Below are positions 3,207 through 9,876 of a stretch of DNA of 10,350 nt, piece after piece. The notes beneath the pieces were generated by a model. It was given only the letters and a program-made list of their open reading frames with translations, made no database searches and was not told where the DNA came from. The stretch spans positions 1 through 10,350 of the forward strand of contig JAGCPM010000188.1 in NCBI GenBank assembly GCA_017965685.1. The letters run 5' to 3'. Both the position numbers and the translations under genes were made by a program. Source of the DNA: Kiritimatiellia bacterium (GTDB lineage Bacteria; Verrucomicrobiota; Kiritimatiellia; RFP12; UBA1067). How positions within the stretch are numbered: the first letter of the stretch is position 1; the number at the start of each line of letters is the position of its first letter.

Positions 3207-5045
3207 ATGCATTTCGAGAATACAATAGGGCTGGAGACGCACGTCCAGCTCAAGACGGCCACAAAGATGTTCTGCTCGTGCCTGCTGAAAACCGGTTGCG
3301 AGCCGAATACGAACATCTGCCCCGTATGCCTGGGCTATCCGGGCGCGCTGCCGGTGATGAACCGCGAAGCGATAAAGCTGACCGTGATGAGCGGAATAAT
3401 GCTAGGCTGTCGCATCAACCGCCACGCCACTTTCGACCGGAAGAACTACTTCTATCCCGACATGGCGAAGGACTACCAGATATCGGAGAACGAAAGTCCG
3501 CTATGCATAGGCGGCGGAGTGGAGATAACGCTCGCCGACGGGACGAAGAAGACGATACGGATAAACCACATCCACCTCGAGGAGGACGCGGCGAAGATTA
3601 ACCACTACGCGGCGACTTCGGGAATCGACTTCAACCGGGGCGGCACGCCGTTGATGGAGATCGTCTCGGAACCAGATATGGCTTCAGCAGACGAGGCGAT
3701 AGCGTATTTGACTGCGCTCAAGGAGATGCTGGTGTACGCTGGGGTGAGCGACTGCAACCTCGAAGAAGGCAACATGCGCTCCGACGTCAACATCTCGATA
3801 CGCCCGGCCGGCGAGACGAAACTCGGCACGAAGGTCGAGATAAAGAACATGAACAGTTTCTCGGCGATCCATGCCGCGCTCGAGTACGAGGCGCGCCGTC
3901 AGAGGGAGTGCGTTGCGAAATCATTGCCGATAGTGCAGGAGACGCGCAGGTGGGACGGAGAGGCTCTAGAGACCGCCTCCATGCGCTCGAAGGAAAATGC
4001 GCACGACTACCGCTACTTTCCCGAGCCGGACCTCGTCCCCGTCGAGCTTTCGGAAGAGCAGATCGAAGAGTGGGCAAAACTCCTGCCAGAGAAGCCGGAG
4101 GCGCGGCGCGCGAGGATGATGGAGGAATACGGAATCGCGCAGTACGACGCGGAGGTCCTTTCGCAACACAAGGCGAACGCGGACTATTTCGAGGCGGCGG
4201 CGAAGGGCCTCGATCACAAGACGGCGAAGACGCTCTGCAACCTTTTTATGAGCGACGTGATGGCGCTCGTGAACGAGACGGGCAAGGGCGTGGAGGAGTG
4301 CGCCATGACGCCTAATGCACTGAGGTTGCTCGTCGAAATGTCGGCGAAGGGAACGATAAACGGTCCTACGGTGAAAGAACTTCTGCCGGAGCTTTTCGAA
4401 AAAGGCGGCGATCCGGAAGCAATCGTGAAGGAGCGCGGACTCGGCGCCGTGAGCGACACGTCGCAGCTTGAGGCTTTCGTAGATCAGGCGATAGAAGCCA
4501 ACCCGAAGAGCGTGGCCGATTTCAAGGCCGGGAAGAAGGCGGCGGCCGGGTTCTTCGTAGGGCAGGTGATGAAGCTTTCGAAGGGCAAGGCAGACCCCAA
4601 GATAGTGGGCGCCCTTGTCGCGAAGAAACTCGCCGCGCTTTCGCTCGCGCTGGCCGTGATACTGGGAATCGCGGGCTGCAACACCTTCACCAGGAGCCAG
4701 CTCGACGCGTACATCGACGACGACGCCTACATCATCAAGGTCGAATACGGCAATTGTTCGCGTCCGCACAAGTACATACTGGTATCTCCGATGAACGGCA
4801 AGGAGATAGAGTGCCAGACCACGATGATGGCGCGCGTCACGCTGCCCGACGGGCGCAAGTTCGAAGGGTACTACGGACAAAACGAATTCTCGTACGGGAC
4901 GATGTACACCAGCGCGAACGGCAAGTGGAAGTATTTCACGACAGGCATCGAAAGCTCCGTATTCGAGTACGACAAGCGGGTTAACGACCACAAGCTCGTA
5001 TACCACGGCAAGCTCTGCCCGAGGGCTCTGGAAGAAGACGAATGA
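3207..5045 (+). CDS. gatB: GatB amidotransferase subunit with lipoprotein-like C-terminal extension
   Basis: GatB is the kinase/tRNA-binding subunit of GatCAB, which converts Glu-tRNA(Gln) and/or Asp-tRNA(Asn) to the correct amide forms in the cytosol. The start MHFENTIGLETHVQL is diagnostic; zinc-type cysteines are Cys23, Cys25, Cys38 and Cys41, the last two in CPVCLGYPGALPV. NYFYPDMAKDYQIS and the GatB/YqeY tail domain (about 325-478) follow. Family members end near residue 475-480, as here at VAKKLAAL, but this frame continues to 612. Residues 473-490 read as a lipoprotein signal (KK, hydrophobic core SLALAVILG, lipobox IAGC with Cys491), then about 120 residues I do not recognise. Either this is a true fusion or a second gene starts inside gatB in the same frame. 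No gatA or gatC lies in the window. The gene overlaps trmJ by 4 nt. Confidence 0.93.
   Translation: MHFENTIGLETHVQLKTATKMFCSCLLKTGCEPNTNICPVCLGYPGALPVMNREAIKLTVMSGIMLGCRINRHATFDRKNYFYPDMAKDYQISENESPLCIGGGVEITLADGTKKTIRINHIHLEEDAAKINHYAATSGIDFNRGGTPLMEIVSEPDMASADEAIAYLTALKEMLVYAGVSDCNLEEGNMRSDVNISIRPAGETKLGTKVEIKNMNSFSAIHAALEYEARRQRECVAKSLPIVQETRRWDGEALETASMRSKENAHDYRYFPEPDLVPVELSEEQIEEWAKLLPEKPEARRARMMEEYGIAQYDAEVLSQHKANADYFEAAAKGLDHKTAKTLCNLFMSDVMALVNETGKGVEECAMTPNALRLLVEMSAKGTINGPTVKELLPELFEKGGDPEAIVKERGLGAVSDTSQLEAFVDQAIEANPKSVADFKAGKKAAAGFFVGQVMKLSKGKADPKIVGALVAKKLAALSLALAVILGIAGCNTFTRSQLDAYIDDDAYIIKVEYGNCSRPHKYILVSPMNGKEIECQTTMMARVTLPDGRKFEGYYGQNEFSYGTMYTSANGKWKYFTTGIESSVFEYDKRVNDHKLVYHGKLCPRALEEDE
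4605..5045 (+). other. Lipoprotein-like segment in frame with gatB; possible internal gene
   Basis: If translated separately, this would be a small lipoprotein. An in-frame GTG at 4605 would give a signal peptide of 24 residues with Lys-Lys, a hydrophobic core and lipobox IAGC ahead of the lipidated Cys (codon 4677-4679). An in-frame ATG at 4569, with AGGGCAGG just upstream, is an alternative giving a longer n-region. The mature part is about 122 residues, rich in Tyr, Lys and charged residues, with stretches such as VTLPDGRKFEGYYG, and looks beta-rich and globular; I recognise no family. There is no stop codon between the GatB tail and this segment, so the GatB C-terminus and the signal peptide share codons. 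Which product or products exist cannot be settled from sequence. Confidence 0.6.
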
Positions 5046-5797
5046 GCGCCGCGCTTGACAACATCAGAGTGGTGCTCGTCGGCACTCTCTATGCCGGCAA
5101 CGTCGGTTCCGCCGCGCGAGCGATGGCGAATATGGGCATACGGCATCTCAGACTGGCCGCGTCGAACCTGCAAAGCGACTGGAGCGAAGCGGAGAAGATG
5201 GCCGTGCATGCGGGGGATGTCCTTGAAACGCGCGAGGAGTTCGCAACATTCGAGGAAGCCGTCGCGGATTGCGTGGCGGTGGTCGGCACCACCGCGCGCC
5301 AGGGATTATACCGTCAGCACGTCAAGGCGCCGAGGGATGTCGCGAAGGAAATCCTCTCGCTTGCCGAAACCGGCAAGGTCTCGCTCGTGTTCGGGCGCGA
5401 GGACAAGGGGCTTCTCAACGAAGAGGTCGCGCAATGCACGCACCTCATAAGAATTCCCGTCGACAAGGGCTACACATCGATCAATCTCGCGCAGGCGGTG
5501 CTCGTGACGTGCTACGAGTTTTTCGTCAACGCCGGCGAGTACGAGATGCCGCGCGAGAAGGCGCCGCCCGCAGCGCAGGCGCAGAAGATGCAACTCATGA
5601 AAAACTGGGCCGAGATGCTGATCGGCATAGGGTTCATGACGGAAGAGCAAACCGACCATTTCATGCAGGGCTTCCACCGCGTGTTCTCGCGCGGAGTGTT
5701 CACTAAGGACGATGCGGCGCTTCTTCTCGGCGTGGCAAGGCAGACTCTCTGGGCGGTGAAGCATGGCGGCGCCGTCGCGAAGGAGGTCTCGAAATGA
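5042..5797 (+). CDS. trmJ: TrmJ-like SPOUT RNA 2'-O-methyltransferase
   Basis: TrmJ-type enzymes use S-adenosylmethionine to methylate the ribose of nucleotide 32 in the tRNA anticodon loop. The SPOUT trefoil-knot motifs are clear: motif 1 GNVGSAARAMANMG (19-32) with Asn20 and Arg26, motif 2 FGREDKGLLNEE (117-128), and motif 3 IPVDKGYTSINLAQAV (138-153). GTTAR (82-86) between them is also typical. The length of 251 residues and the C-terminal extension past the knot (about 165-251) match TrmJ rather than the shorter TrmL. The start overlaps the gatB stop as ATGA, suggesting translational coupling in a gatB-trmJ-ubiA operon. Two of the three products act on tRNA. A related rRNA or tRNA position cannot be excluded as the target. 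Confidence 0.88.
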   Translation: MSAALDNIRVVLVGTLYAGNVGSAARAMANMGIRHLRLAASNLQSDWSEAEKMAVHAGDVLETREEFATFEEAVADCVAVVGTTARQGLYRQHVKAPRDVAKEILSLAETGKVSLVFGREDKGLLNEEVAQCTHLIRIPVDKGYTSINLAQAVLVTCYEFFVNAGEYEMPREKAPPAAQAQKMQLMKNWAEMLIGIGFMTEEQTDHFMQGFHRVFSRGVFTKDDAALLLGVARQTLWAVKHGGAVAKEVSK

Positions 5798-9792: not shown

Positions 9793-9876
9793 GCATCTGT
9801 GGTGGAATGGCAGACACGCTGGATTTAGGTTCCAGTGCCGCGAGGCGTGAGGGTTCGAGTCCCTCCAGATGCACCA
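9793..9876 (+). tRNA. tRNA-Leu (anticodon UAG)
   Basis: The 84-nt cloverleaf is complete. The acceptor stem is GCATCTG (9793-9799) with CAGATGC (9866-9872), discriminator A73 and an encoded CCA end (9874-9876). The anticodon stem CTGGA (9819-9823) and TCCAG (9831-9835) holds loop TTTAGGT with anticodon TAG at 9826-9828, reading CUN leucine codons. The long variable arm (9836-9848, GCC-GCGA-GGC) is the class II form expected of leucine tRNA. The T arm is GAGGG, TTCGAGT, CCCTC (9849-9865). It sits 7 nt after dnaJ and 13 nt before the citrate synthase start, with no promoter visible, so it may be processed from a longer transcript. Confidence 0.97.

Follow-up and report, generated by a model that had tools for sequence, protein, structure and literature searches.

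The window, that is the entire 10,350-nucleotide stretch of Kiritimatiellia DNA analyzed here, contains an open frame for a protein of 612 amino acids (3207-5045 on the forward strand, with an ATG start and a TGA stop at 5043-5045), which is a genuine fusion of gatB with the lipoprotein gene found next to it on the downstream side in most relatives. The best explanation for this architecture, to which we give a probability of about 0.6 on the basis of sequence comparisons and structure models, is that a single chain is made and that its internal lipoprotein signal would be cut by signal peptidase II before Cys491. The claim of the sequence-only reading that the GatB frame runs on in frame to a lipobox IAGC with Cys491, for a total of 612 residues, was confirmed, the C-terminal part being 122 residues long; likewise, the positions that it gave for two candidate internal starts (ATG 4569, codon 455; GTG 4605, codon 467) and for Cys491 (codon at 4677-4679) are exact (Table 1).

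Table 1. Features of the gatB-lipoprotein fusion and its downstream neighbor in the window
Feature	Position	Strand	Remarks
gatB-lipoprotein fusion ORF	3207..5045	+	612 codons plus TGA; same fusion in 13/61 genus genomes
GatB part, residues 1-476 (GatB_N and GatB_Yqey)	3207..4634	+	
ATG codon 455 (Met455)	4569..4571	+	also in unfused GatB
GTG codon 467, candidate internal start	4605..4607	+	absent from some fused genes
Last GatB helix, residues 464-486, predicted unbroken into the hydrophobic signal stretch	4596..4664	+	AlphaFold2 model of the fusion
GatB-tail Lys473-Lys474, at the place of the lipoprotein n-region	4623..4628	+	
h- and c-region of the internal signal, uncharged LAALSLALAVILGIAG (residues 475-490)	4629..4676	+	model pLDDT <50 at 483-491
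Lipobox Cys491, where lipidation and a signal peptidase II cut (before Cys) are predicted	4677..4679	+	putative cleavage
Mature lipoprotein domain, 122 residues, all-beta, MliC/PliC-like fold	4677..5042	+	model mean pLDDT 93.4
ATGA overlap, fusion stop/trmJ-like start	5042..5045	+	
TrmJ/YjtD-family RNA methyltransferase gene	5042..5797	+	TIGR00050 above cut-off

Profile searches with the fusion recovered the complete set of GatB models, namely TIGR00133 (540.5 bits against a cut-off of 314.8, residues 1-475), PF02934 (380.1) and PF02637 (155.1), with the Pfam and NCBIfam models stopping at residue 475/476. The N-terminal part thus scores as GatB over the whole family length, but the chain does not stop at the usual 475-480 and runs on to 612. 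It has the same whole domain set as the bacterial GatB of the GatCAB Asp-tRNA(Asn)/Glu-tRNA(Gln) amidotransferase, and is 36-46% identical to the best-ranked eleven bacterial GatB chains in a comparison with the PDB. Unlike ordinary GatB, however, it lacks a stop at 476-480, and its last helix is predicted to pass into a lipoprotein signal followed by an exported domain. The expectation that GatB normally ends near 475-480 was borne out, because the protein ends at most five residues beyond position 476 in all 80 comparison loci, a non-random set kept from 593 candidates in which four loci are at 79-88% identity and none is fused, and ends normally in 20/20 genes from other genera of the same family. 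The nearest named relatives in the comparison (L056-L059) are metagenome bins at this 79-88% identity, sampled in two cases from the rectum of a sheep and the abomasum of a goat.

The fusion is recurrent within the genus, being found in frame in 13 of the 61 genomes searched (G000, G002, G011, G017, G030, G058, G063, G065, G069, G070, G074, G078 and G083). The query was matched in 57 of the 61, and a gatB match was absent from the remaining four (G003, G025, G075 and G076), which are 71-85% complete. A locus-by-locus classification of 67 loci showed gatB and the tail as two adjacent genes at 38 loci in 37 genomes; this check, suggested by the sequence-only reading, thus recovered relatives that carry the tail as a separate downstream gene with its own start. 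In seven genomes gatB has no adjacent tail, which lies elsewhere in six of them and was found nowhere in the genome searched in the case of G024. One of the 37 genomes with adjacent genes, G031, shows both arrangements. Two gatB loci each are present in G031 (L013, L039, L040) and G026 (L011, L032), and since G006 has a gatB almost identical to the C90 copy of G031, the G031 and G026 bins may be mixed. In G032, G013 and G059 (L033, L034, L144) gatB appears as two match pieces, as if broken or bearing an insertion. An apparent further fusion in the search table, G015, was rejected on account of a TAA stop followed by a separate gene. Beyond the genus set, searches of 5.8 billion public proteins with three fused queries yielded 1, 8 and 8 clusters, that is 17, of 610-617 amino acids; these carry both GatB domains, and all 17 have a Lys/Arg-Lys-Leu end followed by a hydrophobic run and Gly-Cys. 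The idea that the ORF represents an ordinary GatB variant was rejected because the tail is a separate gene beside gatB in 37 genomes, and it is also contradicted by the tail being elsewhere in 6 of the 7 other genomes with an unfused gatB.

At the junction the window shows, in order, Lys473-Lys474, sixteen uncharged residues and the lipobox IAGC with Cys491. A comparable arrangement of a last Lys, 15-18 uncharged residues and Gly-Cys is seen in 13/13 fused genes, and Gly-Cys occupies the lipobox in 58/58 tail loci of the genus. The strict lipobox consensus is [LVI][ASTVI][GAS]C. The window lipobox conforms to it, and it is matched by 4/13 fused as against 26/45 unfused tails (Fisher p 0.12, uncorrected for kinship), with Phe at -3 in 6/13 of the fused forms. 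Hence, the positively charged n-region, the hydrophobic stretch and the lipobox Cys of a lipoprotein signal are all in place, but its N-terminal position is not: the signal of the fusion is internal (residues 473-491), whereas at each of the 38 separate loci the signal follows an ORF start of its own. An AlphaFold2 model of the whole fusion (mean pLDDT 87.6, pTM 0.65) has both GatB and the barrel intact, with structure matches over about residues 1-478 and 495-604. Residues 483-491 form its only run of at least three residues with pLDDT <50, and this run coincides with the proposed cut. The signal peptidase II gene lspA was matched in 12/13 fused genomes, 11 of them over the cut-off, and the genome missing it is 64% complete; in the window's own genome the match is partial, at a contig edge.

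The tail itself appears to be a usually single-copy lipoprotein of this bacterial family, with one match per fused genome in 13/13. Its model is an all-beta, eight-stranded barrel (mean pLDDT 93.4) with an MliC/PliC-like fold, assigned from VIA-align 2 matches whose list leaves other families possible. An alignment was made of 54 of the 58 tail loci, without two that run off contigs and two that repeat other rows; since the rows were cut at the first Cys, this residue is necessarily invariant in it. In Pfam scans PF09864 was not among the families matched by any of these 54 tails, for which only chance-level families were recovered, including Nm-ACP, a family of the same fold, for 2/54 with a best E of 0.084; in relatives from other genera PF09864 was passed by 2 of 8. 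Sequence searches of the PDB gave nothing credible with the tail profile (best E 0.03) and chance matches only with the protein of one relative. The key motifs given for MliC/PliC in PMC5507604 are SxSGAxY and YxxxTKG, and at these positions the window tail has the divergent FSYGTMY and WKYFTTG. The Ser of the first motif is kept in 14/54 and the Lys of the second in 1/54 of the genus tails, and in 5/12 and 8/12, respectively, of the relatives from other genera. Thus, the tail resembles the MliC/PliC lysozyme inhibitors (PF09864, COG3895) and the ACP-type inhibitors in predicted fold, but the genus tails differ from the MliC/PliC inhibitors in giving no PF09864 match and in mostly lacking their key residues. 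We describe it as a predicted divergent lipoprotein of the MliC/PliC fold and as at most a candidate lysozyme inhibitor. What was earlier described as about 120 residues of unrecognised sequence can now be named by its predicted fold as an MliC/PliC-like barrel. The portions of the open-licence PMC literature on Kiritimatiellae that combine them with rumen and lysozyme offered nothing to the point.

A gene of the TrmJ/YjtD family regularly follows the lipoprotein gene, also where gatB is located elsewhere (6/9 loci outside the genus and 7/7 inside; window 5042-5797, L164-L169 and L172-L178). In the window, stop/start overlaps (5042-5045 and 5794-5797) link the fusion to the trmJ-like gene and this in turn to a gene for a UbiA-family prenyltransferase, the nearest NCBIfam name of which is decaprenyl-phosphate phosphoribosyltransferase, and further downstream a tRNA-Leu gene (9793-9876) comes immediately after dnaJ.

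The fused protein seems to be the sole GatB of its host, since each fused genome has one GatB, the copy of G074 being split over two contigs. Its partner gatA was matched in 13/13 fused genomes, over the cut-off in 11, G000 among them. An asnS match over the cut-off was found in 0/13, the weaker matches present in all being probably related synthetases; in a control the same search was over the cut-off in 7/14 genomes. This implies that GatB should be needed for Asn-tRNA(Asn). With glnS over the cut-off in 12/13, the window's own incomplete genome being the exception, GatB would not be needed for Gln-tRNA in those genomes. Within the limits of incomplete bins, the fused GatB thus probably serves, as part of GatCAB, the formation of Asn-tRNA(Asn).

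Comparison of coding sequences shows that GatB, junction and tail are all under purifying selection in the nine fused genomes tested: in 16 pairs covering 9 of the 13, dN/dS was 0.03-0.11 for GatB, 0.06-0.39 for the junction, where the value is noisy because of its shortness (34-37 codons), and 0.04-0.22 for the tail. These pairs come from the two larger fused clades with synonymous distances from 0.15 to above 2, some of them saturated, and gaps among them amount to one codon at most.

The separate gene pairs provide a clue regarding the route to fusion. When the earliest possible lipoprotein start is taken throughout, it precedes the gatB stop by one base (NTGA) at 30/38 separate loci and by four bases at 2/38, and it follows the stop at 6/38; in a few loci, such as G059, G073 and G080, translation may really begin at a later ATG. 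In the fused genes this overlap is gone and the Lys pair of the GatB tail (or Gln-Lys or Arg-Lys) occupies the place of the lipoprotein n-region; the pair is mostly present in unfused GatB too. Gene pairs with NTGA overlaps are described as translationally coupled in PMC6728339, and the unfused loci are like these in 30/38 cases, while in 13 genomes the pair became one frame. Hence, the ancestor would have been an overlapping, probably translationally coupled NTGA pair, and changes that removed the overlap together with the lipoprotein's own start and n-region would have brought both genes into one frame. The exact mutations can be proposed only in outline, a small deletion across the overlap being the likely fusing event. 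Of the earlier proposal that a recent deletion joined gatB to a neighboring lipoprotein gene through a shared Lys-Lys-Leu stretch, the in-frame joining at this stretch stands, but its recent date does not: the fused genes do not form a clade, and in two fused clades the fusion has been kept over large synonymous distances.

That the fused genes form no single clade is shown by several analyses. A gatB DNA tree was computed without the junction from 53 rows, 12 of them fused; it omitted G032, G013, G060 and G059 (genes broken or cut), G074 (spread over contigs) and the G026:C153 fragment. On this tree 5 changes of the fused label are required, and well-supported branches force 4 of these. The same counts, 5 changes and 4 forced, were obtained on a tail protein tree (55 rows, 13 fused), from which G016, G071 and G077 were left out for showing no lipobox by the pattern used, although a simpler pattern locates one at all 58 loci, and in which the G029 row began at a wrong upstream Cys. 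In an AU test on an outgroup-rooted gatB set (55 rows, 12 fused), which like the counting of gains and losses also left out G071 for its long branch and odd composition, a single fused clade was rejected with an lnL difference of 190.6 and p 1.7e-12. Smaller unions, named after the tree had been seen, were rejected as well (G002 and G017 groups, p 0.004), those of the G002 group with G011 (p 0.03) and of G000 with G011 (p 0.02) weakly. By parsimony, the simplest history has four to six independent fusions, with 5 gains versus 15 losses on the rooted tree and 4-6 gains versus 9-16 losses on 200 bootstrap trees. These counts come from single-gene trees with low support in parts, on which a change may be a gain or a loss, and recombination at the 3' end of gatB could inflate them; G000 and G011 share a tail subtype, so that transfer of the fused 3' end between them is possible.

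This asymmetry bears on the alternative of a single old fusion in the ancestor of the genus, repeatedly split again into overlapping genes. The two histories tie (13 each) when gains are weighted at three times the cost of losses, and at four times a fused ancestor becomes slightly cheaper (14 versus 15). Nevertheless, such a history calls for 9-16 losses in place of 4-6 gains, and every fission event would need to supply a new stop, start and n-region, arriving at an identical NTGA offset of one base in 30/38 loci. Moreover, the tail gene of other genera lies beside trmJ in 6/9 loci and never beside a gatB match, and the GatB end is normal in all 20 genes from those genera. We accordingly regard an old fusion as quite improbable. 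An assembly or base error in the window might be entertained in view of its fragmented, 65% complete source genome, but is refuted by the same architecture in 13 genomes and 17 public protein clusters, and its probability is negligible. 

A further alternative retains two genes nested in the same frame, with ribosomes also initiating at Met455 (or at GTG 467 in the window) to make a separate lipoprotein with a long n-region, the long ORF being a by-product. Met455 is the sole start-like codon common to 13/13 fused genes in the region from codon 451 to the lipobox, and the resulting signal peptide in the window would be about 36 residues long; initiation there is possible. However, Met455 is an ATG in all 59 genus GatB loci read, and its anti-Shine-Dalgarno pairing shows a median of -2.5 kcal/mol whether the locus is fused (13), separate (38) or gatB-only (8), which is not stronger than the -3.0 kcal/mol of 935 other in-frame ATGs. 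This comparison is of low power because real gatB starts (55 loci, median -2.8 kcal/mol) are themselves no better than internal ATGs, which also makes starts hard to exclude by this means. The dedicated nested start of the sequence-only reading was thus not supported: GTG 4605 is not present in all fused genes, past Met455 no ATG, GTG or TTG occurs before the lipobox in G011, G058 and G074 (3/13), and ATG 4569 occurs equally in unfused GatB with the same median pairing, albeit in a weak test. There is no start codon specific to the fused genes, and nesting would still leave the loss of the gatB stop to be explained, so that we consider it improbable. In the other alternative the protein is uncleaved and bifunctional, the hydrophobic stretch being a signal anchor that keeps GatB joined to a periplasmic barrel and the transamidase permanently membrane-bound. 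Both the continuous helix 464-486 of the model and the irregular lipoboxes (4/13 strict) would be consistent with this; against it stand the retention of Gly-Cys in 13/13 fused genes and 17/17 public clusters, which would be needless for an anchor, and the lspA matches in 12/13 fused genomes. An uncleaved protein is thus unlikely, if a little less so than nested genes.

The preferred reading, a cleaved single chain, can be laid out as follows. The 612-residue chain would be translated whole and its GatB part would fold in the cytoplasm; the last GatB helix, with Lys473-Lys474 acting as the n-region of the internal signal, would enter the inner membrane N-in. Cys491 would then be lipidated and signal peptidase II would cut before it, freeing the MliC/PliC-fold lipoprotein for the envelope and leaving about 14 hydrophobic residues on GatB as a stub in the inner membrane. 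This stub implies that the transamidase may be membrane-tethered, unless it is trimmed later. In E. coli, a lipoprotein without Asp after the Cys goes to the outer membrane. None of the fused forms has Asp in this position; if the rule applies to them, they would be destined for the outer membrane, and release from GatB would thus be required. The fusion would fix the synthesis of GatB and the lipoprotein at 1:1. It is unusual for a Sec signal to be preceded by a large folded domain.

FbcH (cytochrome b/c1) of Bradyrhizobium japonicum is a known case in which one gene yields two proteins by way of an internal signal. In the flavivirus C-prM, as outlined in PMC7601889, a polyprotein is cut at an internal signal. 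By analogy, the fusion would likewise have an upstream and an exported protein in a single ORF, separable by signal peptidase, but it would differ from both in that its upstream partner is a soluble tRNA enzyme and in that the cutter would be signal peptidase II acting at a lipobox. Thus, GatB, the MliC-fold lipoprotein, the overlapping gene pair and the principle of one gene for two proteins are all of known kinds. In the open-licence PMC literature searched, mostly titles and abstract openings, no case was found of a GatB-lipoprotein fusion, an internal lipoprotein signal, a fusion of overlapping genes or a bacterial enzyme-lipoprotein polyprotein, nor of the repeated joining of a tRNA enzyme to a lipoprotein.

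Taken together, these observations could define a cellular polyprotein, a reading that we hold at even odds, in which a probably essential subunit of a cytosolic tRNA enzyme and an exported lipoprotein are resolved by signal peptidase II. It would have evolved several times (four to six by parsimony) in one genus from an overlapping pair, with an inner-membrane-tethered GatCAB as by-product and with Lys-Lys-Leu codons that double as the end of the enzyme and the start of the secretion signal. If this is true, cells can use an internal signal to put a soluble and probably essential enzyme of translation on the same chain as an envelope lipoprotein, and overlapping NTGA pairs can slide repeatedly into fusion when a protease can undo the join. 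The system would then offer a case for repeated gene fusion across the border between cytoplasm and envelope, for the action of signal peptidase II on internal signals and for membrane-bound transamidation, and it adds a predicted divergent MliC-fold lipoprotein, neighbor of a TrmJ-type methyltransferase gene, to the biology of gut Kiritimatiellae.
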